A stretch of 39,722 nucleotides of DNA from a virus. A program made the translations under genes and the position numbers. Under the pieces are notes generated by a model that had not been told where the DNA came from, did no database searches, and was given only the letters and a program-made list of their open reading frames with translations. Where the stretch lies: the IMG/VR virus record IMGVR_UViG_3300047667_001780, positions 1 to 39,722 of that record. One strand, 5' to 3'. Shown here piece by piece: positions 17,801 through 39,722 of the stretch (positions are counted from its first letter, which is position 1; every line of letters begins with the position of its first letter).

Positions 17801-20800
17801 AATGTTCATGAATTAAACATAACTTCTTCTGGTCTGACTCCAGTCGCAGAGGGTATTACTCTGCGTGGAACTCAAGTATACCCGATTGTTGTCTCGGGGG
17901 CAACTCTTATGTTCAACAATGACATCATAGAATTTTCTAAAAACGCAAATATAGATGATGAGTTGCCTATTCTAGTGACGGGGACAGTTATCAATCCCTC
18001 TATTCCAAGCGGCAGCACATTGACAGTTGACGGAATTAATATCAACCTGATTAAAACAACATCGTCAACTGTATTTTCAGATATTGTTTTTCAGGGAAAT
18101 GTTACTTTTCCAACCATTGTCAATAGCAATTCTGCCGAATTCACAATCTCTTATGCCAATTCAGTGGGGGCAACTCTCATCGATACGGTAGTGGCGTTTA
18201 ACGAGTTGTCGGATACAAAAACAATGCAGAAAATTCTAATTGATGCATTGGGGACAGCGGGCATTGTTTCATCAACCGTCTATGCTAATCAAATAATCTC
18301 AACAATGTCGTCATTGCAGACTGCATACATTTCGGCAACAACTGTTGGTGATTGGGAAACTTTTGTCAGCACATATTACTCTTCTGGCGCAATAGATCGA
18401 ACTTTTAATCCTGAGATTTTAGGAGATGCAATTACTGCAAGTCCGGGATCAACATGGGAAACCGCAGCGCGCGCCGTTATTGATTCCGATCTTGAATTGA
18501 TTGAGTTGCTGAGCGGCAATGCCGCCACTGAAACACAGGCAAGTATCGTCAGCGGCTCGCTTAATAATTCTGCTCAATTTGATATTGATCGAGATGCTGC
18601 AAATACGTTGCTTGATGCAACGCTAACAGTCAATGACGACAATGTTAATTTGGCTGATTTGATTGCATTTATTAAAACAAATGGGGGAATTAACATTGCC
18701 GCCGGTGAAGAAATAACTGTTTCTGTTCCGACTGAATATGTAACTGATGTTCTGTCTGCTATAATAATCAAAATAAACACTGCTCTTGTCAATGCAGGAA
18801 TTGCAGATATAGTTGCGGATGCTTATGAAAATAGTGTGCGGTTGACAAGATCGACTGTTTCCAGCGGATATAGACTTGGAGCATCTGAGAATTCGTTTCT
18901 TGGTTTTGTTGTTGCGGATGCAGATGTTGTTGCTTCCGGATCAATAATAACTGTTGGCGTTGCTTTAAATGTTGCAGAATCTGTTATTGCGATTAACAAT
19001 GCTGCTGTAACAGGAATTTCGGCAATATCATCAAATAATAAATTGGAGATAATAAGCATAAATTCAAGGCTGACAATAAGTGATACTGCGGTATTGAGTC
19101 TGTTTGGGCTTCCATATGGGGTTTTCGATGCTTCCATTGCAACATCAATAATATTAGTCGATTTAACGATTTCTGATGTTGTGCAGCAAATAAATGCGGC
19201 GGCTCTTACTAATCTATCTGCGTCTCAAATTGAGGGAGCATTGATAATCACTTATGATGCCGCCACGTTGGTAATCGATAATGGAACTGCAAACAGTAGT
19301 CTGGGCATTGCATCGGGAACGTATACTTCGTCAACTGACGCAATTGAGAATATCTTTACTGCATCTGATTGGCTAACGGTCGTTGAGCCTGCCAATTTCA
19401 ATATTTGGGTCATTGACAACATTGGTTCCAACCCATCGCCTCAAAATGTCACAAACCAATACAATGTTTATCAGACAATTGATTTCGGTTCGGGCATTAC
19501 TGAGGTATGCGCCGGAAATGAAAATGGCGATGATGCGATGATTTCATGCACAAATGCTCATACTTTGTCGGAAGATGAATATGTCTTGATTTTGAATAGT
19601 TCTACTGTTCCAAGTATTGACGGAATTCACAAAGTTACTGGAGTCAAGAACGACTATAAATTCTTTATTGATCGGTATATTGACGAGAACGGATACTTAG
19701 GTAAAGTAATTCCGGTAAGAACAATGCGATTTGCCAATAGTTCCTCAATGGAAACTGCGATTGCATCAACAAAATATGTGTCTGATAATGGCGGAATAAT
19801 TTCCGATCAGTATATGTTTGTTGATGACGTTGAAGTTGCTGGCCAGTCAACAGGAGCGGGAGCCGTATACTCTATTACTCGATCCAATAATAATGCAACA
19901 CCAGTAATTGTGCGCAATGAAACTCCGAAAACAATCAATTCCACTCTGAAGAATGTGGTTCTGTTCTCAGATGCAACCAATGAAACAATCTCTATCCTTG
20001 AAGTCATTGATCCACTTAAAGGGATAATTTCGGGCGCTGCTGATAAAGAAATAGATATTCGAAATGAGGTTGATATTGCCGGATATAATGCTACTACTGA
20101 TTCAGCCAAGAATTTAAATTATGCAAATTCTTGGGGCAAAACACAAGTCGGCATGGTATGGTGGGATTTGTCAAATGCAATCTATCTAAATTATGATCAG
20201 GGATCAGATAATTACAGACAAGCGCATTGGGGTGAACTATTCCCAACGTCAACTATTGATGTATATGAATGGACAAAAAGTCCGGCTACTCCTGATGAAT
20301 ATGAGGCATTGGGGGCAATCGGATCAATTGTGGACGGCATTGAGTTGACGGGAGTTCCGTATTCTACAACAGATCGCAATGGCGACACTCAGTATTATTG
20401 GGCAGAAGAATTGCATCTAAACAACAAAAATAATCAAATAGAAACATTCTATTATTTTTGGGTTAAAAATAAAACTACGGTTCCAGATTCATCCAGAACC
20501 TATTCGATATCACAATTAACTGACGTTATCCTTGATCCTACCAGCAATGGAATATCTTGGTGTGCCGCATCAAGTGACTCAACATTGCTGGTTAGTGACT
20601 TGGCGGAGATAATTGGCTATGATGATTTAATATTGCAGGTTAACTTCAAAAAAACCGATGTTAACTATCACCAAGAGTTTATCTTGTTGTCTGATACCGA
20701 TCAGCGGACAGTAATACCAGAATGGTTGCACATGAGCGTTCGTGATAGCTTAGCGGGTTTCTCCAGAATAGAAACAATAGAGGAATTCACAGTATACGAT

Positions 20801-26671: not shown

Positions 26672-27247
26672 GTGGATTACACTTCGATTAAAATTCAAGG
26701 ACATGTTCTTATTTCTGATGCAGAAACGGGACATGTCATACTCAATAAGCGAAATGCAATTCATATCGAAAATATGAGTGTTGCTATCGCCAGCGCCATG
26801 AGCAATGCAAAGAATTCATATGGATTTCTTGGCAACATTCACTCATTTGCTTTTGGCAATGGAGGAACCTCTGTGAATGATGTCGGTCTGGTAACATACA
26901 ATTCTCCTAAGAACGCATTGACTTCCGACGTGTTGTATAATCAGACATATTCAATAGTAATTAATAATACAGAAGAAGAAGATTCTAATAATAATATTTC
27001 ATTTACTCACTACAATGGCTCAACCTTCAGTGACATTATTATTACTGCAACTCTTGATTATAGTGAGCCATCATCGCAGGATTCTCTTGATGATGCAGCG
27101 ACGCGAGATGGGGATTATGTTTTTGATGAAATAGGTCTCTTTTCACAACAAGGTAAATTACTAACTCATTTGGTTTTTCATCCAGTGCAAAAAAGCGCAA
27201 ATGGAAAATTCCAATTCGTGTATACAGTAAGAATTTCAATAGGATAA
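26672..27247 (+). CDS. conserved virion-type protein, unknown function
   Basis: The 191-residue protein begins with GTG, preceded by ATAGG about 8 nt upstream. No in-frame ATG precedes the conserved IKIQGHVLISDAETGHVIL opening. The C-terminal part (YVFDEIGLFSQQGKLLTHLVFHPVQKS) resembles structural proteins encoded near the fibres of T4-like marine phages, where DEIGLF and a final THxxFHPV strand are recurrent. The middle is polar (EEEDSNNNIS). There is no enzymatic or membrane signature. It begins a four-gene run (26672-29566) with gaps of 0-3 bp, so it is probably a fibre or baseplate accessory protein. Confidence 0.5.
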   Translation: MDYTSIKIQGHVLISDAETGHVILNKRNAIHIENMSVAIASAMSNAKNSYGFLGNIHSFAFGNGGTSVNDVGLVTYNSPKNALTSDVLYNQTYSIVINNTEEEDSNNNISFTHYNGSTFSDIIITATLDYSEPSSQDSLDDAATRDGDYVFDEIGLFSQQGKLLTHLVFHPVQKSANGKFQFVYTVRISIG

Positions 27248-27250
27248 AAA

Positions 27251-28312
27251 ATGACATACACTGTTACTTTCTCGGACGTTTCAAAAACTCCAATAACAAT
27301 CAATAATAAAACAGTCGATACTTCAACCAGTATTGGATTATGGGGCTATGGGTATACCAGTTTTGGCACAGTTGCAGCGGAATCATTTTTGCATTCTCTT
27401 GAAAACTTTGCCAAGTCAACTCCCCCAACGAAGCCAGTGGAAGGACAAAATTGGTTTGATAACTCGAATAAAATATTTAAGTATTTTGATGATACCGTGG
27501 CGGATGGCGGCAATTGGAAATCAGTCGCAAGTCTTACTGTAACCAGTGTCGAACCATCGTCTATCGGTGAACAAGAGGGTCATTTTTGGCTGGACGATGC
27601 AACCGGCAAATTATCATTATATTATAATAGTTCTTGGCAATCAATTGCCAATGCCGGGACAAATACAAATGTTGTTCCAAGAGTTAGGTATGATACTGTT
27701 GGCGTCGCGCATGAGACAATAGAGGTTATTGTCGGAGGAAAGATTGTTTCAATTATGTCCAGCGATTCGGCTTCATGGGCACCACAAATTGCCGGGGGGA
27801 ATGCCGCATATCTTGAAGATGGCACTACTCTGTTGAATACCGCATTCCCTTCATTGGTTCAAGGTATAAATTTAAACATAAATGACTCATATGTATTCAA
27901 TGGGACGGCAACATCTTCCAATTACGCCGACATGGCAGAAAGATACAAAGCAGATTCTATTATTGAGCCGGGATCGGTGGTTTCTATCGGCGGGGATTTT
28001 GAAATCACCCTAACCATGACCGCCAATGACACAAATATCGTTGGAGTAGTCAGCACAGACCCCGGAGTTATGCTGAACTCAAACGCAGGGTCTGATGATA
28101 CACACCCGTACGTTGCCCTGTCAGGGCGCGTGCCTGTTAAGGTAGTCGGACCAGTGAAAAAGGGCGACCGGCTTGTCAGCGCCGCTGTGCCGGGCTACGC
28201 AATGCGAGCAAGCATGCCTAATTGGGCAGAGGTTATCGGTCGCGCCCTGACAGATCATGATGTTGGACCAAATGATTTGGGAACAGTCGAGATTATAGTT
28301 GGGGTAAAATAA
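27251..28312 (+). CDS. fibre-like structural protein with a Peptidase_G2-like C-terminal domain
   Basis: The N-terminal 75 residues (GLWGYGYTSFGTVAAESFLHSLENFA, then PVEGQNWFDNSNKIFKYFDD) are a pattern seen in fibre proteins of T4-like marine phages. A second FWLDDATGKLSLYYNSSW strand pair follows near residue 115. Residues about 220-350 (SSNYADMAERYKADSIIEPG, then IVGVVSTDPGVML, ALSGRVPVKVVGPVKKGDRL) resemble the C-terminal chaperone/autoprotease domain (Peptidase_G2 type) of phage appendage proteins. Whether it self-cleaves cannot be told. AGGAT lies 6 nt before the ATG. The DNA for the last 70 residues is richer in G and C than the rest and contains a 13-bp inverted repeat pair (28118-28130 and 28241-28253). 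Confidence 0.5.
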   Translation: MTYTVTFSDVSKTPITINNKTVDTSTSIGLWGYGYTSFGTVAAESFLHSLENFAKSTPPTKPVEGQNWFDNSNKIFKYFDDTVADGGNWKSVASLTVTSVEPSSIGEQEGHFWLDDATGKLSLYYNSSWQSIANAGTNTNVVPRVRYDTVGVAHETIEVIVGGKIVSIMSSDSASWAPQIAGGNAAYLEDGTTLLNTAFPSLVQGINLNINDSYVFNGTATSSNYADMAERYKADSIIEPGSVVSIGGDFEITLTMTANDTNIVGVVSTDPGVMLNSNAGSDDTHPYVALSGRVPVKVVGPVKKGDRLVSAAVPGYAMRASMPNWAEVIGRALTDHDVGPNDLGTVEIIVGVK

Positions 28313-29566
28313 ATGGCTCTTGTTAGCGGGGAATTAATTGAAATTGCGGACTATAATGAGTTGGCGCTGGAAGTAAATCGCCTATTCAGTGATAACACTG
28401 TCAGTCTTGATTATTTGACTTCTGATATTATACTGAATGAAACTCTCAGTGGAGGTGAAGCAGCAGGCGCGACCAGAACATTGTCTCCCGCTCCTACCAC
28501 CGGCGATTTTTTGGTTGTATTGGTCAATAATATCTTGATATTTGAAGGAGGCGACTACACTGTAGATTATGGCACAGCAGTGATAACATTTACCAGTGAA
28601 TTATTTGCCGCCGACGTTATTTTGTGCTATAATCGCACAGCTCATAGATTTGGTTGGGGGCAGACTGCCAGCGTCTATCCTATTGTGGCGGGCGCATCGG
28701 TGTTGGCAGACGAGGAAGTGCAACAGGCATATATTGAAGCAAATCTTAATAATTTGATTGACAAAACAAATATAATGTTGGATCGCTCCGGAAGCGTTTA
28801 TGAATTGTCCCGAGTGACTCCGGGAGCATTAATTTATGCAGCAGATTCGACTTTGGTTGCAGACTCCATCGCAGATGATATTATCGGTGCCGCGTATTGG
28901 TCAAATGAAGTTGCAACAGTGAACGCCAATGCACTTGCATTTACAAGGTCCACTACTTGGGCGACGCAGCTTATTGGCGCATTTCAATGGACTTTTTCTG
29001 GATACAATTCTGCCAGATATTTTTTCAATTCTGGAAATTCTTTGCGTTTCATACTCAGTATGACCGGAGACATTCAGGATGCCGGATTTGGAAATTGGCG
29101 ACAAACAGTTGATGCAATGGGATCATTGGTATTTGGAATTGATTCTGCGACGCAGACGGGTGTAGGCGGGGCAAGTGCAAGCATTGGTTTTTATGACCTA
29201 ACAGACGAATATAGATTGATATTCAGCAGCGCGCCGCCTTCAGCGCCATTCGCAACTGATGGAGCCGCGCCGGGCGAGTATGGTGAATATGCGGCGGTTC
29301 CAAGTGATTATGCTGCATTGTTTCTAAAATTCTATGCAAAAATAGAAGAAGATGTGGTTGTTGCTGGTGATTTTGCTGTTAAAATCAGAGTAATAATGGA
29401 CGACTCTACTTTTGCAACACAAGATATTGCCGGGACAACAACCGCCCAAGGCGGGTATACTGTTGGCAACAGCATAACAAATAATTCGGCAATATTTGAT
29501 GTGTTGACCAGCATATTGCCCGCAATTGATGTTGCTGATAGTTTTATTACAGCCAATGACAGTTAA
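28313..29566 (+). CDS. tail-fibre-like virion protein, unknown role
   Basis: The 417-residue protein starts directly after the preceding stop. It opens MALVSGELIEIADYNELALEVNRLF, a start I associate with virion proteins of T4-like cyanophages, and has an HRFGWGQTASVYPIVAG stretch near residue 112 that belongs to the same pattern. Residues about 55-110 are beta strands (TTGDFLVVLVNNILIFEGGDYTVDY). The C-terminal half (FNSGNSLRFILSMTGDIQDA, ASIGFYDLTDEYRLIFSS) reads like a distal beta-rich domain of phage fibres. No enzyme motif is seen. It is the last gene of the structural block; a host-type promoter begins 4 bp after its stop codon. Confidence 0.5.
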   Translation: MALVSGELIEIADYNELALEVNRLFSDNTVSLDYLTSDIILNETLSGGEAAGATRTLSPAPTTGDFLVVLVNNILIFEGGDYTVDYGTAVITFTSELFAADVILCYNRTAHRFGWGQTASVYPIVAGASVLADEEVQQAYIEANLNNLIDKTNIMLDRSGSVYELSRVTPGALIYAADSTLVADSIADDIIGAAYWSNEVATVNANALAFTRSTTWATQLIGAFQWTFSGYNSARYFFNSGNSLRFILSMTGDIQDAGFGNWRQTVDAMGSLVFGIDSATQTGVGGASASIGFYDLTDEYRLIFSSAPPSAPFATDGAAPGEYGEYAAVPSDYAALFLKFYAKIEEDVVVAGDFAVKIRVIMDDSTFATQDIAGTTTAQGGYTVGNSITNNSAIFDVLTSILPAIDVADSFITANDS

Positions 29567-29569
29567 TTA

Positions 29570-29598
29570 TTGACTTGATCTTGCGCCCATGATATAAT
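29570..29598 (+). promoter_or_regulatory. near-consensus sigma70 promoter of the accessory cassette
   Basis: TTGACT (29570-29575) and a perfect TATAAT (29593-29598) are separated by exactly 17 bp. Transcription would start near 29605. The gene at 29622 follows with AGGAGA (29611-29616) as ribosome site. The structural genes upstream use NATAAATA late boxes instead. Confidence 0.75.
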
Positions 29599-29621
29599 TC
29601 TAATATTAATAGGAGAACATT

Positions 29622-29993
29622 ATGGACGCAAGATTGGAAAAGGCATTAGAAACTGCCAAGCTAAATTTAGTAATGGAAACTCAAAAATCTGCTCTTAAGC
29701 GAAGATTTGATCGTGTCCGAATCTTCTATCATGATCGCGGGATGTTTTTGGCTGACTCTCATCTAATAAATGCAGCAATGTATCATCTTACTCATAATAA
29801 TTCCAACGATTATATTTTACTTGATATGAATTCTGTTCCGATAAAAATATCAGTAGATGCATTGCCTGTCTTTATTGACAATGCAGAAAATAAATGGAAT
29901 TCTGCATTGAAAGATTACCACGACGCCTATACAGTGTTAGGATCAGCAAGAACAGTAAAGGAAATCACGGGAATTGCCAATGACGCCAAGTAA
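29622..29993 (+). CDS. small conserved phage protein, unknown function
   Basis: The 123-residue, mostly helical protein has an excellent ribosome site (AGGAGA, 5 nt spacing). The order of features - DARLEKALETAKLNLVMETQ helix, a GMFLADSHLI segment, YILLDMNSVPIKI in the middle, and a long C-terminal helix ending LGSARTVKEI - resembles a small protein I recall in many T4-like cyanophages near the tail genes. Its role there is not known to me. It is the first gene behind the sigma70 promoter and overlaps the next gene by 14 bp. A 10-bp perfect hairpin lies at 29879-29909 within it. Confidence 0.55.
   Translation: MDARLEKALETAKLNLVMETQKSALKRRFDRVRIFYHDRGMFLADSHLINAAMYHLTHNNSNDYILLDMNSVPIKISVDALPVFIDNAENKWNSALKDYHDAYTVLGSARTVKEITGIANDAK
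29879..29909. repeat. 10-bp perfect inverted repeat inside the small conserved gene
   Basis: CAATGCAGAA (29879-29888) and TTCTGCATTG (29900-29909) flank an 11-nt loop. Confidence 0.9.
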
Positions 29994-30873
29994 AGGAGTG
30001 GCATTATTTGCATATGATACTGACAAGATCAAGTATTCCAAATTAGCTATGTTGGCTGCTGGATTTGTCAAGAAGGCAATGACCAACAACAACGTTTGTT
30101 TGATTACAGATCAACCAACATGGGATAATATGTGCGGTATTTATTCAACTGAGGCAATAGATGCCGTCTTTGATGAAGTGGTCATTGCTGAAGTTCCGAA
30201 AACATCAAATTCGAGAATTCACAGAGACAGTCCTTGGTCGTCGTTTACTAATGAATTCAGAAACAGAAACAAGCACTTAATCATTGATTATACTCCATAT
30301 GATCAAACCCTTCTCATTGACATTGACTATATTATGCAGAATAATTATTTTGATTATCTGTTTGACACTGATCAATCCGTCGCAATGTATCATAATGCTC
30401 ATAATTTAATTGGCAAAGCTGCCGCGCCCGACGATACTTGGTTGAATCCTGCTGGAATCCCTATGCTATGGTCAACGGTAATTTATTTTGACAAGCATTC
30501 AGATGATGCAAGACAATTCTTTGATATGTGGGCATTTGTCGGAGAGAATTATGATTTCTACAGAATGCTTTATGGCTTTTATGGTTCGTTATTTCGCACG
30601 GATTATTGTGTAAGCATTGCATCACACATTTTAAATGGCATGCGCTCCGGATCATTTGTCAATAATTTTTCAGATGGGGCAATGATCAATATGAGTCAGT
30701 GTGACGATATTGCTGCTGTTCATTCTTGGAATGATTGGACCTATTTGTCAAATAATCGTGATATGGAATGGAATGACAATCTAGTCAGAATAAAATCTGA
30801 GAACGTACATGTCATGAATAAAATGGCATTGCTTCGATCATACGATGAATTGATGGGAGAACTACATGGATAG
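29980..30873 (+). CDS. GT-A-like glycosyltransferase family protein with DxD motif
   Basis: The 297-residue protein resembles nucleotide-sugar glycosyltransferases of the GT-A fold. It starts with a beta strand (GVALFAYDTDKIKYSKLAMLAAG), has VCLITDQPTWDNM near residue 40, and YDQTLLIDIDYIMQN near 108-122. In this last motif Asp114-x-Asp116 would bind metal and sugar nucleotide. The later LWSTVIYFDKHSDDARQFF and SLFRTDYCVSIASHILNG parts match a family seen in T4-like marine phages. The donor and acceptor are unknown. The start at 29980 (MTPSKG, GGGAA upstream) is preferred to a TTG two codons earlier. It overlaps both neighbours, so translation is probably coupled. Confidence 0.6.
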   Translation: MTPSKGVALFAYDTDKIKYSKLAMLAAGFVKKAMTNNNVCLITDQPTWDNMCGIYSTEAIDAVFDEVVIAEVPKTSNSRIHRDSPWSSFTNEFRNRNKHLIIDYTPYDQTLLIDIDYIMQNNYFDYLFDTDQSVAMYHNAHNLIGKAAAPDDTWLNPAGIPMLWSTVIYFDKHSDDARQFFDMWAFVGENYDFYRMLYGFYGSLFRTDYCVSIASHILNGMRSGSFVNNFSDGAMINMSQCDDIAAVHSWNDWTYLSNNRDMEWNDNLVRIKSENVHVMNKMALLRSYDELMGELHG

Positions 30874-31627
30874 GAATTGTGGGTATATTACGGTAGTTAC
30901 TGCCCAGTCACAAGTTAAACCTAGTGTAGCATTGATGCTAAGTCTGAAACGCGAAGACCCATCAATCGAATTTCATTTAATTACCAGACCAAATATTGAA
31001 TTTGGTATATATCTGGAACTATTTGATGGTTACACTATCGAGCCAAATGTAACAGTCATGTCTGTGTTTATGATGACTCCATTTGATAGAACAATATACA
31101 TTGATCCAGTAAGTATCGCCTCGTCTTCTGTTCGTGATATATGGAACTGTTGTGATATATTGCCAATATATATTGGGGAAGCGTTTGATTTTAGAGGCGA
31201 CAAGATCAATTGTAATCAGAATGATTTACTTTCATCCAGTATATTCTATTTTGAGCAATCTATTGAATTTACTGATATTGCAAATGCGCTTAATGATCTG
31301 ACCGATATATCAGCATTAAATATTGGCATTTTAAATAAATCAGAAATACCATCATGTAGAACATTAGAATTAGAAAAACACACTGCTGACCTAAAATTGA
31401 CTGCCGCATTGCGATTATTGAATATTCCGCCACTTGCCAGAATTCCATTTACTGACATAAACAGAAAATCAAATCCTGTGCTCACAAAAGATTGGAATGA
31501 CCTAATTGCATTGTGGTTCAACAATGGCAATGAATTGTTTGTTAATAATCACCGACAAATTGGAATTGTATCATATCATGATCCGGCATATATAACAACA
31601 GAGGTTATTGATGAACTCAGTCGTTAA
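30866..31627 (+). CDS. degenerate glycosyltransferase-like protein
   Basis: The 253-residue protein follows with an 8-bp overlap and a GGGAG ribosome site. Its early strands (CGYITVVTAQSQVKPSVALMLSL, IEFHLITRP) and the segment MTPFDRTIYIDPVSI near residues 70-84 line up with TPYDQTLLIDIDYI of the preceding protein. The second aspartate of the DxD motif is replaced (DPV), so catalysis is doubtful. Two cysteines (WNCCDI) near residue 93 are of unknown use. It may be a non-catalytic partner of the active copy, or a different Rossmann-like protein; the relationship is based on a short motif and its position. Confidence 0.4.
   Translation: MDRNCGYITVVTAQSQVKPSVALMLSLKREDPSIEFHLITRPNIEFGIYLELFDGYTIEPNVTVMSVFMMTPFDRTIYIDPVSIASSSVRDIWNCCDILPIYIGEAFDFRGDKINCNQNDLLSSSIFYFEQSIEFTDIANALNDLTDISALNIGILNKSEIPSCRTLELEKHTADLKLTAALRLLNIPPLARIPFTDINRKSNPVLTKDWNDLIALWFNNGNELFVNNHRQIGIVSYHDPAYITTEVIDELSR
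31155..31171. repeat. 17-nt palindrome (8-bp arms)
   Basis: ATATATTG and CAATATAT flank a single C; a 14-nt palindrome CCAATATATATTGG overlaps it (31163-31176). It is AT-rich and could be chance. Confidence 0.6.
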
Positions 31628-32585
31628 GAAAACAAGAAAAAAGAACACTCCCCAGACACTAATTTACTATGATGAGTGGTCAGGGGGCATTCAGCAGATT
31701 GGCAATGGTCATTTGGGGAATATGGATGATCCATTTATTGTGTCATCTGCGTCTGTTCTTCGGAAGATAATAGATGGATCAATCAGTGAAAATAAATATA
31801 TTGTAAGCACAAATTCTAATGGCGTTATGTCGTTATTTGAAAAAGATGACATCATCAGACTTCGCAGGCAAGAAGATGATTTGGCTGTTCTTCCTCGGGG
31901 AAAATTTAACCAATGGGACATCAGGCTGACTTTGTTTGCGGGCAATATGAAAATGATTGTCAAGAGTAATCAGAGCAGTCTACAGAAATTAACTGCCTAT
32001 AGTGAAAGTATAGATCGTATTCTTTCTTATCCGGCAACAATGATGTTCTATTTTACAGAGAGAAACAATCACAATCGGCTACTGGCAACAGTGGAAATTG
32101 ACCAAACAGAATTGTTCAATTCGCCGTATCTAGTTATTGATTTGGATGGATTGATTTCAAGATCGGATATTTTTGCTGTTGACATTCTGACTTGCAGACA
32201 ATTTGAATATTACGACATGGAGATTTTTGCAGACCGATTTATAGAGAAGTCAATCCACAAAGGAAGCGGCAGAATTTTTAAAATAGCAACGGTGCCGGAA
32301 TGTGATATGACAATTGCCATATCTAACAATAGAGCAATTGTCAAGAGTAATGTCACTGCCAGCAGATTTTCAGAAATTGGACTGTCAGGAAAGACATTCA
32401 CTTTGTATGCAATCAGAGGATCACTGGATGCGCTTGTTTCTCCAATCGAGATAAATCTTACCAGATTAAAAGAAAATGGCGAAGTCCATATTGATTTGAT
32501 CGAAGATTGTATGCATTGCAATATAATTCACAATAATCCACATATAATAATTTCAAGGACAGACAGTAATGACACATATATCTGA
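31611..32585 (+). CDS. beta-rich protein of unknown function
   Basis: I do not recognise this 324-residue protein. It starts at ATG 31611 with GAGG 6 nt upstream and overlaps the preceding gene by 17 bp. The N-terminus is basic (MNSVVKKTRKKNTP). The phrase IYYDEWSGGIQQIGN near residue 20 suggests an early beta hairpin. The rest alternates strands such as WDIRLTLFAGNMKMIVKSN and FTLYAIRGSLDALVSPIEIN, consistent with two immunoglobulin-like or jelly-roll units of about 130 residues, possibly duplicated. No catalytic motif, signal peptide or membrane helix is visible. Its place between glycosyltransferase-like genes allows a scaffold or glycan-binding role, which is inference. Confidence 0.45.
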   Translation: MNSVVKKTRKKNTPQTLIYYDEWSGGIQQIGNGHLGNMDDPFIVSSASVLRKIIDGSISENKYIVSTNSNGVMSLFEKDDIIRLRRQEDDLAVLPRGKFNQWDIRLTLFAGNMKMIVKSNQSSLQKLTAYSESIDRILSYPATMMFYFTERNNHNRLLATVEIDQTELFNSPYLVIDLDGLISRSDIFAVDILTCRQFEYYDMEIFADRFIEKSIHKGSGRIFKIATVPECDMTIAISNNRAIVKSNVTASRFSEIGLSGKTFTLYAIRGSLDALVSPIEINLTRLKENGEVHIDLIEDCMHCNIIHNNPHIIISRTDSNDTYI

Positions 32586-33537
32586 ATTAGATATCATCTT
32601 TATATCATATGATGAACCGAATGCAGATGATAATTGGTATGATCTTCTTAGTAAATGCCCATGGGCAAAGAGAAGCCACGGCATCTATGGGAGTGACGCT
32701 GCCCATAAAGCAGCAGCCAAATTAGCATCGACTGACCGATTTATCACAATTGACGCAGATAATATTGTCTATCCTGAGTTTTTTGATATATCACTTGATC
32801 TTTCTGAGGTTGGGCCAAACAGTGTAATAAGTTGGGCGGCAAGAAATGAAATAAACGGATTGGTGTATGGCAATGGCGGCATCAAAAGCTGGCCTAAAAA
32901 ACTGGTTAATTCAATGCAGACACATGAAGCCGCCCCAAAAGGAGATAAGCAAGCCCAAGTTGATTTTTGTTGGGGGATCGACTATATTCAGATGGATGAA
33001 GTTTTTAGCACAATTGCCAACGATACTACTCCATATCAGGCATACCGAGCCGGATTCCGGGAAGGATGTAAAATGTCCCTGAATAATGGCGATCTTTCTG
33101 ATATGAAAAAGATTTACATTAAAAATAAACATCGCCTGCTTATTTGGTCCTCGGTGGGATCAGATACTGTAAATGGTCTATGGGCAATTTACGGAGCGCG
33201 ACTTGGTTGTGTCATGACTGTATTGCGGCAAGATGAATGGAATTGGACAGATGTTCGAGATTTTAAATGGCATGATTCCTTCTGGCAGAACAATATACTT
33301 CCTAAGTTTGAAACAGAAGACGGATGTTTCTGTGAAGTTACCGGGCTTCAGTGGGATGCTTTTATGTTGCGAGACGAAATCAACCAACTTGGCGTGATAA
33401 TGCATGATGAATTAGGTCTGAACGTGGACCTGATGACCGCGCAGGCAAGTCATTTCTTCAAGGAAGTATATATCAATTACCCAAGAACTGAAATGACATT
33501 ACCAGAAAACAAAAAAATATCGAGTCTTGTGCAATGA
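32569..33537 (+). CDS. glycosyltransferase-like protein, DAD motif (copy 1)
   Basis: The 322-residue protein opens DIIFISYDEPNADDNWYDLL, followed by PWAKRSHGIYG, an AAHKAAAKLAS helix and FITIDADNIV with a DAD motif near residue 64. This order of parts is that of GT-A-fold glycosyltransferases, in which DxD binds the metal and sugar nucleotide. RNEINGLVYGNGGIKSW near residue 95 is a further conserved block. It is clearly a paralogue of the gene at 35071, which repeats each of these blocks. The C-terminal 100 residues (ATG 32569 start; AAGGA 9 nt upstream) have no counterpart there. It overlaps the radical SAM gene by 4 bp (ATGA), implying coupled expression. Confidence 0.6.
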   Translation: MTHISELDIIFISYDEPNADDNWYDLLSKCPWAKRSHGIYGSDAAHKAAAKLASTDRFITIDADNIVYPEFFDISLDLSEVGPNSVISWAARNEINGLVYGNGGIKSWPKKLVNSMQTHEAAPKGDKQAQVDFCWGIDYIQMDEVFSTIANDTTPYQAYRAGFREGCKMSLNNGDLSDMKKIYIKNKHRLLIWSSVGSDTVNGLWAIYGARLGCVMTVLRQDEWNWTDVRDFKWHDSFWQNNILPKFETEDGCFCEVTGLQWDAFMLRDEINQLGVIMHDELGLNVDLMTAQASHFFKEVYINYPRTEMTLPENKKISSLVQ

Positions 33538-35081
33538 CTGTTAATAAGGACGATATGAATTGGGAGAAATCATCAACAGGGATGATTAAGCATTCGACAA
33601 CAAACATAGAAACTACGAAGAAACTGCTTGACAAGACTGGTTGTGGTTTCTGTCTGGCAAAATTTACTCAGGTGACAATGCATCTGGGTACCGGCATGGT
33701 GCATAGTTGTCATCACCCGGCAACCCATAAAATTGATCCTGTTGCCGTTGCAAAAAATCCAAATGTTCTATTCAATACTCCGCAATTAAAAATAGCCCGC
33801 AAAGAAATGCTGAATGATCAGAAGCCATCTGAATGTGGATATTGTTGGCGAGTTGAAAATGATAACCAGAACAGTGATCGGTTTTCCAAAAGTCTTTCAG
33901 ATTGGGCGCTGCCTGAGCACGACGATATTGTCAATAAGACAGGAAATGAAGATTTCTTTCCTACTTATTTGGAAGTCAGTTTTGGCAACGCATGCAATCT
34001 GAAATGCATTTATTGTGGACCTGAATTTTCAAGTAAATGGGTTGAAGAATTGAAACAGAATGGACCTGTTACTATTCTCAAAGATTCACCTCAAGAACAA
34101 ATAGTGCAGGGTTGGCAAGATTTAGACAATATAACAATAAAAAACAGAGATTACAATCCATATATTGAAGCATTCTGGAAATGGTTCCCCAATGCATATC
34201 CAAAACTAAAGAACTATCGAATAACAGGTGGTGAACCGTTGATGAATAAAGAAACATTCAGGAGCATGGATTGGCTGATAGCCAATCCAAATCTTAGTCT
34301 TGATTTTTCTATAAACAGTAACCTCAGTGTCCCCGATAAATTATGGAATAAATTTGTTGACAAATTGCAAATTATGAGAACAGATACGGTTAAGAAAATA
34401 ACAATCCATGTCAGCGCAGAAAGTGTTTCGAGTCATGCAGAATATGCGCGGTCTGGGCTTGATTATGAATTGATGAAAAAACGAGTCGTTGAACTTTTGG
34501 AAATAGGAAATATTCGCGTATCGTTCATGTCAACATATAATGTATTGTCAGCACCCACGTTTGGGGAGTGGCTAAAATGGGTTCTTTCTCTGAAGAGAAA
34601 ATACAACTTCGATCATTCTGGCAGTAAGGTGTTTCGTGATACCGGGTTCTCTGTCAATGACAATGCAGACTTGTCTATCAATCCGCATCCAGATCATAAT
34701 GTAATTGTCGGAATTGACATTCCATATCTTAGGCACCCAGAAATGCTGGATGCTCAATACTGTTCAGATGATCTTGTTTCCAAATACATGTTGCCAGATT
34801 TGAAATTCATGATGGAGAATTCAGGATATCTTGGATTTGAAGAACATGAAATTGTCAAGCTGAGAAGAATTGTTCATCACCGGGCACATTTCCTAAAGAA
34901 AGATGATGTTTCTGTCAGGAGAGATGTGGATAAGCAGCGCGCAGCATTTGCTGACTTCATTGATCAGATGGACTCCCGTCGTAATACATCCTTTTCGGAT
35001 ATTCATCCGGAATTGGCAGATTTTATGCAACTATGCAGAAATGCAAAGATATCAATGAGTGGAGATTCAAATGACCTCTGA
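33534..35081 (+). CDS. twitch-domain radical SAM protein
   Basis: This 515-residue enzyme is expected to bind a 4Fe-4S cluster that cleaves S-adenosylmethionine. The radical SAM motif CNLKCIYC is complete (Cys154, Cys158, Cys161), and the SAM-binding RITGGEPL follows at residues 229-236. An N-terminal domain carries further cysteines: CGFC (37, 40), Cys59 in MVHSCHH, and CGYC (101, 104). This is the pattern of a twitch/SPASM auxiliary cluster, here placed before the core instead of after it. The substrate is unknown. It sits between two paralogous glycosyltransferase-like genes, overlapping both by 4 and 11 bp. ATG 33534 overlaps the upstream stop; an in-frame ATG at 33555 has the better ribosome site (AAGGA, 4 nt spacing) and could be the true start. 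Confidence 0.85.
   Translation: MTVNKDDMNWEKSSTGMIKHSTTNIETTKKLLDKTGCGFCLAKFTQVTMHLGTGMVHSCHHPATHKIDPVAVAKNPNVLFNTPQLKIARKEMLNDQKPSECGYCWRVENDNQNSDRFSKSLSDWALPEHDDIVNKTGNEDFFPTYLEVSFGNACNLKCIYCGPEFSSKWVEELKQNGPVTILKDSPQEQIVQGWQDLDNITIKNRDYNPYIEAFWKWFPNAYPKLKNYRITGGEPLMNKETFRSMDWLIANPNLSLDFSINSNLSVPDKLWNKFVDKLQIMRTDTVKKITIHVSAESVSSHAEYARSGLDYELMKKRVVELLEIGNIRVSFMSTYNVLSAPTFGEWLKWVLSLKRKYNFDHSGSKVFRDTGFSVNDNADLSINPHPDHNVIVGIDIPYLRHPEMLDAQYCSDDLVSKYMLPDLKFMMENSGYLGFEEHEIVKLRRIVHHRAHFLKKDDVSVRRDVDKQRAAFADFIDQMDSRRNTSFSDIHPELADFMQLCRNAKISMSGDSNDL
34267..34289. repeat. 10-bp perfect inverted repeat inside the radical SAM gene
   Basis: TGGATTGGCT (34267-34276) and AGCCAATCCA (34280-34289) flank a 3-nt loop, a compact and stable hairpin in RNA. 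Confidence 0.9.
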
Positions 35082-35781
35082 TGTATTTTTCATAAGTTAT
35101 GGCGAGCCTAATGCCGACCAGAACTTCGCTAGATTGCTCGTACACGCCCCGTCAGCAAAAAGGGTCAATGGGGTAGCTGGAATCTTCAATGCCCATGTAG
35201 CAGCCGCCACGTTGAGCGTGACGCCTAATTTCTACGTTGTTGACGCAGACGCAGAAATCGAAACAGGTTTTGATTTTTCATTCACCCCGTCAGTCGATAC
35301 AATGCTGTGGAATGATATTCCGGAAACTGAATGTGTATTCGTCTGGCGCTCGCGAAATCCAGTAAATGATCTGCTATACGGATATGGCGGCGTAAAGTTA
35401 TTTTCTAAACAGAAACTACTGGATGCGACATCATGGAATATTGACATGACGACAACAATAGGATCGCCGTTTGTTCCAAAATTTCAGATAAGCAATGTCA
35501 CTGCATTCAATACTGATCCATTTAATAGCTGGAAAAGTGCTTTTCGAGAATGCGCGAAGTTGTCAAGCAGCACAATCCCCAATGGAGATAATACAGACAA
35601 TAAATATCGGCTAGACATTTGGTGTTCGCGCGGCGCTAACAGACCATTTGGCAACGAATGTATCCTTGGAGCAAAACAAGGACGTGATTTTGGATTGCGA
35701 TACAAAGACAACCCACAAATTTTAAATAAAATCAATGATTTTAATTGGCTAAGGACAATATATGACTCTCATGCAACATAA
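35071..35781 (+). CDS. glycosyltransferase-like protein, DAD motif (copy 2)
   Basis: The 236-residue paralogue of the protein encoded at 32569 shares, in order, DVFFISYGEPNAD, PSAKRVNGVAG, NAHVAAATLS, FYVVDADAEI with its DAD motif, and RNPVNDLLYGYGGVKLF. It is shorter, ending after the GRDFGLRY segment. Both copies could act as a pair on one glycan or as a heterodimer. ATG 35071 (GGAG 7 nt upstream) was preferred over a GTG four codons earlier. It overlaps the radical SAM stop by 11 bp and the next gene by 20 bp, which places it in the same translational unit. Sugar donor and acceptor are unknown. Confidence 0.6.
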   Translation: MTSDVFFISYGEPNADQNFARLLVHAPSAKRVNGVAGIFNAHVAAATLSVTPNFYVVDADAEIETGFDFSFTPSVDTMLWNDIPETECVFVWRSRNPVNDLLYGYGGVKLFSKQKLLDATSWNIDMTTTIGSPFVPKFQISNVTAFNTDPFNSWKSAFRECAKLSSSTIPNGDNTDNKYRLDIWCSRGANRPFGNECILGAKQGRDFGLRYKDNPQILNKINDFNWLRTIYDSHAT

Positions 35782-36619
35782 ATTACTCAACAGATTTGAA
35801 ATACTGTTTCCGGAAAAATCAGAATTTGCTGATTTTCGACGTGCATACATTGACCATGATCTTTCCAGTATTTTCCGACTAATTAAGGGAAAATCAGAAA
35901 CTGAAATTGATGATATTAGGTCAGCATTACTCTCCGGAGATATCAATCGCATATTCAAAATTGCAAAAACAATGCAAGATTCGAGAATATTGGACGCATT
36001 GCATAACATCCTCATTACTGAAACTGAATTTGATTTCGATTCAATTAGTCAAGGTCAGTTAAAAAGCAAGATGTGGCTTATTGAAACTCTTAAAGAATTG
36101 AAATTAAATCTTGGCACAGTTTACTTGTGCGCTGGATGGTATGGAATTCTTGCTGCTTTATTGTATGACCATGACTTAACTAGCTCGCCCATCATAAGTA
36201 TTGACATGGATGAAACTGTAATTCAGAATGCCAATATTTTCAATGCCAGAGAAATAGACATATGGCGCGGAAAATTTCATGCAAGTTGCGCGGATATAAC
36301 CTCTCCTGAATTTTCATATAATCAATTGATCTGGATTGACACCTCCCCAAAACATGTTCGTGCCATGAGATATCAGGCAAATACAGTAATTAATACCAGT
36401 TGTGAACACATTGTCAATTTTGACTATTGGTATCAAAATATTCCGGATGGTATGCTAGTGATCCTCCAAAGTAATAATTTTGAAGATATTGAAGAGCATT
36501 CAAATTGCCATGCCTCACTGAAAGAATTTGCAGATGTTACGCCAATGAAAAGCGTCATATTTGAAGGACAACTTGATTTGGAAAAGTATAGTCGTTTTAT
36601 GCGTATCGGGATTAAATAA
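35762..36619 (+). CDS. class I SAM-dependent methyltransferase-like protein
   Basis: The 285-residue protein has an acidic, helical N-terminal ~110 residues, then TVYLCAGWYGILAALLY, which takes the place of the glycine-rich SAM-binding loop of class I methyltransferases. IISIDMDETVIQNA is the acidic strand that would hold the ribose. The end (WYQNIPDGMLVILQSNNFED, then RFMRIGIK) matches a family I recall from marine phages. The substrate is unknown and the glycine-rich loop is unusual (AGWYG), so activity is probable but not certain. AAGGA lies 6 nt before the ATG. The stop overlaps the next start by one base (TAATG). Confidence 0.6.
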   Translation: MTLMQHKLLNRFEILFPEKSEFADFRRAYIDHDLSSIFRLIKGKSETEIDDIRSALLSGDINRIFKIAKTMQDSRILDALHNILITETEFDFDSISQGQLKSKMWLIETLKELKLNLGTVYLCAGWYGILAALLYDHDLTSSPIISIDMDETVIQNANIFNAREIDIWRGKFHASCADITSPEFSYNQLIWIDTSPKHVRAMRYQANTVINTSCEHIVNFDYWYQNIPDGMLVILQSNNFEDIEEHSNCHASLKEFADVTPMKSVIFEGQLDLEKYSRFMRIGIK

Positions 36620-38535
36620 TGAATCAGATAGTCATTGACAACACCATTCCGGGGTGGGCAAGCGAGACACACTTAGCTATATTCGCATCAATTGCCAACC
36701 TGTTAAATCATCACTGTGATCAGCCAAAAATATTGGAAGTCGGAACATGGCTTGGGCGATCCATTTGGGCGTTTTCAGAAAATTGCCCAAATGGATCGAT
36801 TGTCAGTGTTGACATAGCAAATAAGAATACATTAACTGAGATTATGACCAGACAAATACCAAATTCTCCTATGGATGGGGATTCTACTTTGTGGGGTGTT
36901 GATGATATTGGTATAACGGATGCTTGCAAAAAAATTATAACACAAAAGCAATGGGAGACAAAAATAAATAATATTGCTTCTTATAGTCTGGGATCAGATA
37001 ATTTCTTTTATAATAATGAAGATTTTTTTGATATGATATATTTGGATGGGTCACACAATGAAGATCAGGTATTTCGTGATTTAATTAATAGTCTTGATGT
37101 ATTATCCACAGGCGGGGTAATCATTGTGGATGATTACGATTACAAAAATAGTAAATGGACCGGAGTCAAGGTAGCTGTTGATAATCTATGTAAATATTAT
37201 CCAAAAATATCCACCTTCCAGAGCAATAAGTTAAATGGATGTATAGTCTTATTCAAAGATAAAACAACCCTTACATCAGACATACTTGCATGCATCGACA
37301 GCCCATTGCCGCATGTCAAGCTGCCATGGTGTGCCGAGCCATTTATTAATTTACACCACACTGCTGATGGAACATACCAGATATGCTGTATTAGCAGAGG
37401 CAATTCTGATCCGATGATGAAAACATCAGAAATATCTCCTATAGATTTCATAAATTCCCCATATGCAAAAACCATCAGGAGTGATATGATGGAAGGAAAA
37501 TTAAGCAAGACTACTTTGAACGCCTGCAATAATTGCATTATTAATGAATCGGCTTTAACTCCATCAAGAAGAACAACAAGAAATAAATGGAATATGTCAC
37601 AAGAGACATTTAATGCAACTATATCTAAATTCGCAGAGAATTACAATGCGAATTTAGATATATCTGATTTGCGCCACGTCAATCTAAAAGTATTGGGGAA
37701 TTTATGTAATCTAAAATGCATAATGTGTAACCCAACTTCATCTTCTAAAATCGCAGCAGAATATAAAAAACACAATATTACAATGTCAAATAAATCGGTA
37801 ATTTTGACTCCATATAACAATGAAACAAAAGATGCATATTTTTCAGATATAGTCGAAATAGCTGGGCATTTGGACACATTTATTCTTGTTGGTGGTGAGT
37901 CTTTACTTAATCCAGACTTTGCAGAATTGTATCAGTTATTATCAGATAACAAGAATGCAAAGAATTTGAATTTGATTATAATAAGTAATGGAACTATACT
38001 TCCGGAATTGGTCTCTGAATTGGCAGACTGTTTCAAGAACGTAAGATTGATTTTCAGTTTAGATGGAATTGGAGAACAGGGATCATACATACGAAGCGGT
38101 CTTGATTGGGAGTTATTTGACAGAACTGTCCATAAAGCAATGGCAACTGAAAATTTAGATGTTTCATTCACTATTGCAATTCAAGTCTTGAATATTGGAT
38201 ATTTGGATGATGTTCTTGATTATATAAATATATTGGGATTAACAGAAAATGATATTAATTGGGGCAACATTGTTGCGTTTCCAATTGGTTTCCGGGCGGT
38301 AAATTTGCCTCCTGAAATTAAAAAAAGATATCTTGACAAATATTCAAATCATGCCATATCAAAAATGACCACCCCAACATTGTTGGCGGCGCTGCATATT
38401 CTAAATACTCCCGAAGTTGATCATGAATTATTCATCAAGGGCATTCAAGCATTCGCCGCAAAAGACAAAATCAGACAAACTAATCTTCTGGATCACTTTC
38501 CAGAATTCTCGAAATATTACAAGGAAATAAAATGA
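36619..38535 (+). CDS. methyltransferase - twitch - radical SAM fusion protein
   Basis: This 638-residue protein joins two enzymes. Residues about 35-215 are a class I methyltransferase of the Methyltransf_24 type: LEVGTWLGRS (about 39-48), FDMIYLDGSHNEDQVFRDL (about 138-156) and STGGVIIVDDYDY (about 168-180). Residues about 232-320 are a twitch-type cysteine domain (LPWCAEPF, ICCISRGN, ACNNC). Residues about 355-560 are the radical SAM core with CNLKCIMC (Cys363, 367, 370) and the SAM-binding ILVGGESLL. The protein therefore has two potential SAM sites with different chemistry. The gene overlaps both neighbours (1 and 4 bp). It contains two unusually long perfect inverted repeats (36757-36798 and 37620-37662). 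The substrate is unknown. Confidence 0.8.
   Translation: MNQIVIDNTIPGWASETHLAIFASIANLLNHHCDQPKILEVGTWLGRSIWAFSENCPNGSIVSVDIANKNTLTEIMTRQIPNSPMDGDSTLWGVDDIGITDACKKIITQKQWETKINNIASYSLGSDNFFYNNEDFFDMIYLDGSHNEDQVFRDLINSLDVLSTGGVIIVDDYDYKNSKWTGVKVAVDNLCKYYPKISTFQSNKLNGCIVLFKDKTTLTSDILACIDSPLPHVKLPWCAEPFINLHHTADGTYQICCISRGNSDPMMKTSEISPIDFINSPYAKTIRSDMMEGKLSKTTLNACNNCIINESALTPSRRTTRNKWNMSQETFNATISKFAENYNANLDISDLRHVNLKVLGNLCNLKCIMCNPTSSSKIAAEYKKHNITMSNKSVILTPYNNETKDAYFSDIVEIAGHLDTFILVGGESLLNPDFAELYQLLSDNKNAKNLNLIIISNGTILPELVSELADCFKNVRLIFSLDGIGEQGSYIRSGLDWELFDRTVHKAMATENLDVSFTIAIQVLNIGYLDDVLDYINILGLTENDINWGNIVAFPIGFRAVNLPPEIKKRYLDKYSNHAISKMTTPTLLAALHILNTPEVDHELFIKGIQAFAAKDKIRQTNLLDHFPEFSKYYKEIK
36757..36798. 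repeat. 14-bp perfect inverted repeat in the methyltransferase part of the fusion gene
   Basis: CGATCCATTTGGGC (36757-36770) and GCCCAAATGGATCG (36785-36798) flank a 14-nt loop, directly after the SAM-binding motif. Confidence 0.92.
37620..37662. repeat. 16-bp perfect inverted repeat between twitch and radical SAM domains
   Basis: TATATCTAAATTCGCA (37620-37635) and its reverse complement (37647-37662) flank an 11-nt loop. It is the longest perfect stem found in the window and lies in the interdomain linker. Confidence 0.92.
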
Positions 38536-39170
38536 TCACTACTGTCATAATTGGATTTATTTGGTATCAGATAATCGCACACATTGGAATCTCAGCAGGT
38601 CTTCATCGCTATTGGTCACACAAGGCATTTGGCGCATCAGTTGTGTTTGAAATTATCACTCTTTACATGGCAATAATTGCAGGAGCACGAAGCCCTATCG
38701 GGTGGGTGTCTGCCCACCGAATGCATCATCATCATAGTGACACAAAAAATGATCCACATTCTCCAAAATATAAAGGCTTCTGGCGAGTATTTTTCTCAAC
38801 ATGGTCGATACAAGACATTCCGGTTAAGTATTCCAAAGATTTATTTGAGAACCCGAGGATGCGATTCTTTCATAAGTATTGGAAAGCAATTTGGATCATA
38901 TCGGCTATTACAGCAAGTCTTGCCGGGCTGCATGTGGTAATTGCTGCAATTGTGATTCCGGCTGTGTTGTCAGCAATTGGTTTTGGATCTGTCAATGCCA
39001 TTTGTCATAAAAATGGCAATTCGCGGAATGTCCCGATTGTTAATATTTTAGTGGCAGGCGAGGGATACCACGACGAACATCATCATGGTAAAATGGTTCG
39101 GTATCATCGCAATGACACTACAGGAATAATAGTTGAGCAATTCATTAAGTGGGGAATCTTCACAAAATGA
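38532..39170 (+). CDS. membrane fatty acid desaturase (acyl-lipid/acyl-CoA type)
   Basis: The 212-residue membrane enzyme has the three histidine boxes that bind the di-iron centre: HRYWSH (His25 to His30), HRMHHHH (from His62) and HDEHHH (His180 to His185). Hydrophobic helices lie before box 1, between boxes 1 and 2, and around residues 115-150. It would introduce a cis double bond in fatty acyl chains at the host membrane, using an electron donor not encoded here. It is shorter than typical bacterial delta-9 desaturases (about 260-300 residues) because it starts only 24 residues before box 1 and ends soon after box 3. AAGGAA precedes the ATG, which overlaps the previous stop by 4 bp (ATGA). 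Desaturases are known in some cyanophages. Confidence 0.85.
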   Translation: MITTVIIGFIWYQIIAHIGISAGLHRYWSHKAFGASVVFEIITLYMAIIAGARSPIGWVSAHRMHHHHSDTKNDPHSPKYKGFWRVFFSTWSIQDIPVKYSKDLFENPRMRFFHKYWKAIWIISAITASLAGLHVVIAAIVIPAVLSAIGFGSVNAICHKNGNSRNVPIVNILVAGEGYHDEHHHGKMVRYHRNDTTGIIVEQFIKWGIFTK

Positions 39171-39198
39171 TAAGCGCATATAATTGGAGCAATTTAGT

Positions 39199-39722
39199 AT
39201 GACGACATTAGACAGAAAAGAACTCCCGCCATTTATTAAATTGCCGTTTAAATTTGACATGGATAAAATTCTTGAAGCATTTGAGCCATTTAAGGATTTT
39301 AACAAATACAATGATTTAAATGGAAATGCATGCAATGCAGAATATGCAGAACTGGCAACAGAAAAAAGAAACCATCTTGCTAAATTTGTGCATGACAGTG
39401 AGTTGATTAAATTTGAGAATGCAGCATACGCCAGTGAATTCTACAAACAATTATCATTAACTGAATTTGATGGTGACAGAGACTTGCCGAAGATAAGCAG
39501 CAATGTATTTGAATCATATAAGGCAAGTGCGCGACCAGATTCCGCAGCATATTCGCCAATACTAGACGAACGTAATTATACAAAACGCAAGGATATTTGC
39601 ACTGGTTATTGGAATGATATTCTGGATACTTTTAAATCGCCGGTGACTCGAACTAGATTTGCATATCTTGCTCCAAATTTCAGCATCAAGCCACATATTG
39701 ACTATAATACCACTTACAGTAT
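39199..39722 (+). CDS. 2-oxoglutarate/Fe(II) oxygenase-like protein (Asp/Asn beta-hydroxylase type), C-terminus outside window
   Basis: Only the first 174 residues are in the window. The sequence opens MTTLDRKELPPFIKLPFKFDM. Near its cut end it has RFAYLAPNFSIKPHIDYNTTY, where His166-x-Asp168 fits the first two iron ligands of cupin-fold 2-oxoglutarate oxygenases, in the pattern of aspartyl/asparaginyl beta-hydroxylases (R...L.P...I.PH.D). The distal histidine and the arginine that binds 2-oxoglutarate lie beyond the window. GGAG lies about 10 nt before the ATG, after a gap of 28 bp. The protein or small-molecule substrate is unknown. It continues the accessory cassette. Confidence 0.6.
   Translation, partial: MTTLDRKELPPFIKLPFKFDMDKILEAFEPFKDFNKYNDLNGNACNAEYAELATEKRNHLAKFVHDSELIKFENAAYASEFYKQLSLTEFDGDRDLPKISSNVFESYKASARPDSAAYSPILDERNYTKRKDICTGYWNDILDTFKSPVTRTRFAYLAPNFSIKPHIDYNTTYS

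Follow-up and report, generated by a model that had tools for sequence, protein, structure and literature searches.

A conserved gene cassette behind a phage fibre operon and its possible role in glycosylation of the fibre tip

The window analysed here (39,722 bases) is the IMG/VR virus record IMGVR_UViG_3300047667_001780, and it ends in a cassette of eleven open reading frames (ORFs), all on the + strand and mostly overlapping, which runs from 29622 to the end of the window behind s417, the last structural gene of a fibre operon that also includes s191 and s353 (Table 1). The distances between successive genes from gene 1 to gene 11 are -14, -8, -20, -17, -4, -23, -20, -1, -4 and +13 nt. A sequence-only reading of this DNA had described eleven genes with overlaps or very short gaps and a TTGACT-17-TATAAT promoter just after the last structural gene, and the ORFs, gaps and coordinates bear this out; the promoter lies 3 nt past the stop codon of s417 and 23 nt ahead of the gene 1 ATG. 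Terminator-like sites within the cassette are no more frequent than chance predicts (6 found, 6.0 expected). The assembly of the window is supported by another contig of this phage, L002, which has only 5 mismatches to it over 14,631 common bases and extends 3.6 kb further.

Table 1. Features of the fibre operon and the adjoining cassette, with positions in the window
Feature	Position	Strand	Description
s191	26672..27247	+	Conserved structural gene heading the fibre operon; phrog_11259 (3.3e-59); homologue in PA5oct
s353	27251..28312	+	Fibre protein family; relatives often have two or three copies
s417	28313..29566	+	Last structural gene; putative fibre-tip protein, proposed acceptor
s417 tyrosine loop, GEYGEYAAVPSDY	29273..29311	+	Near-invariant Tyr333 at 29309-29311
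Promoter	29570..29598	+	Sigma70-type, TTGACT-17-TATAAT, extended -10, 11/12 consensus match
Gene 1	29622..29993	+	123 aa; core; no convincing match to a known family
Gene 2	29980..30873	+	GT8-type glycosyltransferase; DID motif (D114, D116); core
Gene 3	30866..31627	+	GT8-type protein; profile match to glycogenin 2.6e-8; core
Gene 4	31611..32585	+	~324 aa; core; no convincing family match
Gene 5	32569..33537	+	GT-A-type glycosyltransferase; DAD motif; core
Gene 6	33534..35081	+	Twitch radical S-adenosylmethionine (SAM) protein; NF033640, 289.7 bits (cut-off 170); CNLKCIYC; frequent
Gene 7	35059..35781	+	Shorter paralogue of gene 5; GT-A-like; frequent
Gene 8	35762..36619	+	Methyltransferase-like (weak); conserved in 45 of the first 80 loci; frequent
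Gene 9	36619..38535	+	Twitch radical SAM protein with a fused methyltransferase domain; variable
Gene 10	38532..39170	+	Fatty acid desaturase family; PF00487, 39.4 bits (cut-off 29.7); variable
Gene 11	39184..39722	+	2-oxoglutarate oxygenase of the Asp/Arg beta-hydroxylase family; truncated at the end of the window; variable

Most of the families named in the sequence-only reading were recovered, namely glycosyltransferase-like proteins, two twitch radical SAM enzymes, the methyltransferase domain of gene 9, a desaturase and a 2-oxoglutarate oxygenase. The methyltransferase proposed for gene 8 fared less well, with methyltransferase profiles giving weak matches for a few members of that family (best 1.8e-4) and none for the window copy. 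Gene 2, whose most likely start is the ATG at 29980, has a profile match to glycogenin with an E-value of 0.022, and its AlphaFold2 model (predicted local distance difference test score, pLDDT, 94.5) has glycogenin as its best fold match (Z 15.6, root mean square deviation 3.7 over 221 residues). LARGE1, LgtC (Z 14.8) and UGGT are effectively tied with glycogenin, so that the fold does not reveal the acceptor, and GlyE (5gvv) is also among the matches; the predicted viral structure that matches best belongs to an uncharacterised protein from an uncultured phage. The DxD metal motif (D114/D116) is invariant across 35 sequences, and with this motif and a modelled GT-A fold of the GT8 kind the product of gene 2 is predicted to transfer a sugar from a nucleotide sugar. 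The second GT8-type gene, gene 3, is perhaps inactive in the window phage, because the DxD motif is missing from its copy. In the model of gene 5 (pLDDT 90.6) the GT-A domain occupies residues 1-159 (Z up to 11.0, root mean square deviation 3.0, 141 residues), and the DAD motif is invariant at D62 and D64.

Among the genes further downstream, gene 9 matches Methyltransf_24 above the cut-off at its N-terminus, and its radical SAM part scores 269.2 bits with NF033640 (cut-off 170) and carries the CxxxCxxC motif as CNLKCIMC. Gene 10 retains three histidine boxes (HRYWSH, HRMHHH and HDEHHH), and a complete copy of gene 11 in L002 (14093-14836) matches Asp_Arg_Hydrox (PF05118) with 45.9 bits against a cut-off of 22.6. 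Behind gene 11 that contig encodes, at 14827-15998, a 213-aa protein of no recognised family and a 182-aa protein which by eye looks like another 2-oxoglutarate oxygenase, neither of them with a Pfam match, and at 16018-18167, behind gene 13, two tandem paralogues of 337 and 379 aa, the second with terminal YANGNKHWYIHGQRHRVDGPA-type repeats. A viperin-like or defence role was considered for gene 6 and rejected, as its match to pVip is weak (5.8e-5) and NF033640 fits far better; apart from that match, nothing matched the defence library.

Conservation of the cassette was followed in three scans: one with gene 6 (80 viral loci), one with gene 2 that does not favour loci with radical SAM genes, and one with s191, which selects for neither cassette genes nor radical SAM and served as the structural anchor for an unbiased scan. 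The contigs of the relatives were ranked by similarity, are partly redundant and are all linked through the fibre operon, and are not to be counted as independent events. Gene 1 is present in 48 of the 80 loci found with gene 6, and all 48 are ordered in the same way: a fibre gene, then gene 1, the pair of GT8 genes, gene 4, a gene 5-type gene and radical SAM genes, with few insertions or swaps. The gene 2 scan recovered the same core, plus a group without a radical SAM gene at that place. In the s191 scan, the cassette was present in 51 of the 51 loci that have s417 and at least 700 nt beyond it. Loci without s417 were also without the cassette. The tip gene lies at most four genes upstream in 167 of the 169 cassette loci with enough upstream sequence.

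Genes 1 to 5, encoding the small protein, the two GT8-like proteins, the gene 4 protein and the GT-A-type protein, are a fixed unit; genes 6 to 8 are frequent, and genes 9 to 11 are variable additions. A pattern search found a copy of gene 9 only in the same phage, and in the first 80 relatives genes 10-15 are seldom or never present. When pairwise distances were compared across 37 distinct loci, those of the core genes correlated with those of s353 and the tip protein at 0.62-0.85 and with each other at 0.63-0.91, whereas the first radical SAM gene gave correlations of just 0.16 and 0.35 with s353 and the tip. Hence the suggestion that all eleven genes form one pathway is not supported, and the idea of one conserved unit of eleven genes was rejected: gene 9 was found only in the one phage, the genes behind it do not accompany the core, and the radical SAM genes vary independently. 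What survives of the proposed co-occurrence is that genes 1-5, usually with gene 6 and often with genes 7 and 8, occur together across many divergent contigs, from uncultured aquatic phages. How far these represent unrelated phages, as had been envisaged, is a matter of degree, since the records reach 457 kb and the tip proteins are often just 20-40 % identical, but all the contigs share one fibre operon.

These patterns could be accounted for if genes 1-5 were merely held in place by linkage to the fibre operon while the region behind them collected unrelated auxiliary genes that have no common product. The variability of genes 9-15, the failure of the radical SAM distances to track the core and the resemblance of the region to a described hypervariable island (PMC7029224) all fit such a hotspot. 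We nevertheless regard it as improbable, given that, within a variable region, five genes keep a fixed order behind a dedicated promoter that recurs, and that the genes of the core have similar tree distances.

That promoter is more than a chance resemblance, because its recurrence in relatives far exceeds that in shuffled sequences: a match to 11 or 12 of the 12 sigma70 consensus positions was found in 65 of 146 distinct spacers separating gene 1 from s417, where 0.3 would be expected. In 100-nt upstream regions the same match precedes 44 % of the gene 1 copies (0.2 % by shuffling) but 3.4 % of those of s417, 2.6 % of s191 and 0.3 % of s353. The heptamer ATAAATA, which resembles the T4-type late promoter, is distributed otherwise, being found upstream of s191 in 66 %, s353 in 29 %, gene 1 in 27 % and s417 in 24 % (shuffles, 3-5 %). 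In the window it occurs upstream of 2495, 8044, 23064 and 26672 and not upstream of gene 1; with a frequency of 27 % before gene 1, some cassette phages may use both signals there. The separate promoter proposed for the cassette is conserved in the relatives, and this host-type signal would set the cassette apart from the late-type fibre genes. A host-type promoter would also suit an early need for glycosyltransferases that modify phage DNA, as in T4, and some phage glycosyltransferases do so (PMC12619734). We consider this very improbable here, as the cassette goes with the fibre operon and family profile searches recognised no base-modifying partner among genes 1-11.

The protein that the core accompanies, s417, is hypervariable, with a mean column identity of 19 % among 39 diverse members, yet a single tyrosine, located in one loop, is conserved in 98 % of 135 distinct sequences. 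The three exceptions are a second copy beside a loop-bearing first copy, a protein with shifted repeats and one with a tyrosine close by. The same loop is often expanded in relatives into (GY)n, (GGY)n or (SGY)n arrays, such that at least four spaced tyrosines are found in 30 of the 135 s417 proteins (1.75 expected by shuffling) and in none of 367 s353 or 127 s191 proteins. The arrays use mixed Gly and Tyr codons, which indicates that they are kept at the protein level; plain DNA slippage was rejected on this ground as the sole cause, though they may have originated by slippage. Cassettes without radical SAM mostly adjoin (GGY)n tips, and those with radical SAM adjoin (GY)n tips or tips without arrays (L111-L132). 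This association (11 of 12 loci without radical SAM) was not used as evidence, as a single clade could be responsible.

Isolate phages provide one point of comparison. Genes 2, 5 and 6, and gene 2 of another lineage, had no match by tblastn in 50,697 isolate-phage records, and the tip protein of a relative matched PA5oct-type phages only. The Pseudomonas phage PA5oct (Arenbergviridae) carries homologues of s191, s353 (two, 2.2e-60 and 7.8e-27) and s417 (EST35_0123) in the order seen in the window, and in its record their products carry the flag ESI-MS/MS (electrospray ionization tandem mass spectrometry). No cassette family was detectable in the 24.7-kb stretch around its fibre operon, and its tip is without the tyrosine loop. 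A scan for PA5oct-like s191 genes gave four loci only, none with a tip gene or cassette within reach.

A glycogenin-type GT8 gene lies beside a gene whose protein has a conserved and in some members multiplied tyrosine, which points to glycosylation of the fibre tip at tyrosine; our preferred, though tentative, reading is that the cassette glycosylates s417, perhaps at tyrosine. The core (gene 1, the two GT8-type genes, gene 4 and the GT-A-type gene 5) would add a short glycan to s417, most likely to a tyrosine in the one loop, much as glycogenin glycosylates itself. The exchangeable downstream enzymes (radical SAM, gene 7, methyltransferases and hydroxylase) would then tailor the glycan or the peptide, differently in each phage, and the host-type promoter, apart from those of the late fibre genes, would have the enzymes ready once the fibre protein appears. 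The sequences themselves show the gene order, the families, the promoter contrast, the co-inheritance with fibre genes and the conserved tyrosine; we infer the substrate and the common function of the cassette, and with them its enzymatic activity, timing and effect on host binding.

Close behind stands the possibility, to which we give somewhat less credence, that the cassette remodels a host surface glycan early in infection (lipopolysaccharide core or O-chain), such that the infected cell and its debris stop binding the phage and its competitors; the cassette would travel with the fibre gene because the receptor it has to alter is the one which that fibre recognises. The host-type promoter before gene 1 suits such a role, the GT8 family includes lipopolysaccharide enzymes such as LgtC, relatives of the tailoring genes lie near glycan genes in Bdellovibrionia and Photorhabdus, and a change of host-surface glycan was proposed earlier for glycosyltransferases of the pelagimyophage host recognition cluster (PMC7029224). 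However, the same core stands beside very different tips, presumably serving different hosts, so that one acceptor common to all of them would be needed, and neither the conserved tyrosine nor the loss of the loop in the cassette-free PA5oct is explained. We favour the fibre over a host glycan because the core is constant beside such different tips, because tyrosine loop and cassette are jointly present or absent in the lineages seen, and because neither membrane-bound nor sugar-nucleotide genes were recognised in the core: no core gene has a membrane-like segment, and family profile searches recognised no sugar-nucleotide or flippase family among genes 1-10.

Several points weigh against glycosylation of the tip. 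The fold of gene 2 is shared with lipopolysaccharide enzymes, LgtC (Z 14.8) being effectively tied with glycogenin (15.6), and the host-type promoter suggests that the cassette may be expressed before, or apart from, the late fibre genes. The identification of s417 as the fibre tip is a prediction from position and homology. Its conserved tyrosine may have a structural role, or sugar may be bound by the Tyr/Gly loop itself. The cassette-free phages with s417 belong to a single lineage, the PA5oct type. Finally, relatives of genes 5, 8 and 6 are found in bacterial chromosomes, in one case near other glycan genes, which indicates that the tailoring enzymes can belong to cellular glycan pathways.

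These chromosomal relatives are grouped on contigs of Bdellovibrionia or related organisms (L166, L171, L179, L180, L182 and L184), where gene 5-type, gene 8-type and radical SAM genes lie together; the neighbours in one Bdellovibrionia case are a GT2 gene, an amidotransferase domain and a mannosyltransferase-like gene. Possibly these represent a cellular glycan cluster that was a source of tailoring genes. Other contigs assigned to bacterial or archaeal metagenome-assembled genomes (MAGs; L163-L165, L167-L169, L178, L183, L185, L186 and L188) look like misbinned phage sequence, because they contain the complete phage fibre operon and the cassette. In L053-L065 and L067-L081, pairs of twitch radical SAM genes recur in another arrangement, with a different set of neighbours (about 284, 240, 279, 470 and 194 aa) and with the fibre core absent within 10 kb of the pairs.

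It is more doubtful that the locus represents a dedicated system which places a tyrosine-linked glycan on a receptor-binding fibre protein and tailors it with radical SAM and exchangeable enzymes. If it does, host recognition in aquatic phages that are common in metagenomes would depend on post-translational modification besides protein sequence. Predictions of phage host range usually use the fibre sequence alone. If a conserved set of enzymes goes with the fibre gene, either the mature adhesin or the receptor that it meets would be chemically altered. Phages with the cassette are frequent in metagenomes and missing from the isolate collection searched, s417 gives a widespread radical SAM family of no known function a candidate substrate that can be tested, and the promoter contrast between cassette and fibre genes provides a handle for dating expression.

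In the left part of the window lie the genes for a late sigma factor and baseplate proteins, together with a structural gene of 11 kb and the fibre genes. The baseplate wedge protein and the sigma factor have their nearest isolate relatives in PA5oct-type and RaK2-type jumbo phages (~35-47 % identity). Both match PA5oct-type phages best; for the wedge protein, cyanophages and pelagiphages are absent among the named groups, and for the sigma factor cyanophages score lower. The 11-kb gene (11858-23005; 3,715 aa, phrog_10938) stands at the place of the VrlC-type giant baseplate protein of related phages.

That GT8 and radical SAM genes occur in fibre islands of marine T4-like phages is already known (PMC7029224), and one T4-like genome has 12 radical SAM genes (PMC5332604). 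The present system, with its fixed core, promoter and link to a tyrosine, was not described in any paper that searches of the open-licence literature on tyrosine and glycosylated tail fibres brought up. The host recognition cluster of pelagimyophages and cyanomyophages is an island with GT8-type glycosyltransferases and radical SAM genes that is described as not syntenic (Zaragoza-Solas et al. 2020, PMC7029224). In both cases a giant baseplate gene precedes a variable island, in which fibre genes are followed by GT8-type glycosyltransferases and cassettes of radical SAM genes, but the window locus has a fixed core, its own promoter and the tip tyrosine, and its baseplate and sigma proteins are nearest to those of PA5oct/RaK2-type jumbo phages. 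The pelagimyophage island is bounded by VrlC and the neck gene gp14; upstream of the cassette the window has a giant structural gene of VrlC-like position, and gp14 does not fall within the window. Mycobacteriophages, as cited in PMC12619734, also use phage glycosyltransferases for virion proteins and carry the glycans on capsid and tail tube subunits; here glycosylation is a prediction, the candidate is a fibre protein, the enzyme families are others and radical SAM is added. The passages of that source consulted gave no sign that moraphages are the same lineage.

With PA5oct the window shares the homologous s191, s353 and s417 in the same order, and it differs in having both the cassette and the tyrosine loop. 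Streptococcal adhesin glycosylation islands include the GT8 enzyme GlyE (structure 5gvv), and they resemble the window locus, by analogy only, in that a gene for a repeat-bearing adhesin lies beside its own glycosyltransferases, one of them of the GT8 family. The repeats of the phage protein are rich in Gly and Tyr rather than Ser, secretion genes are absent, and the setting is that of a phage.

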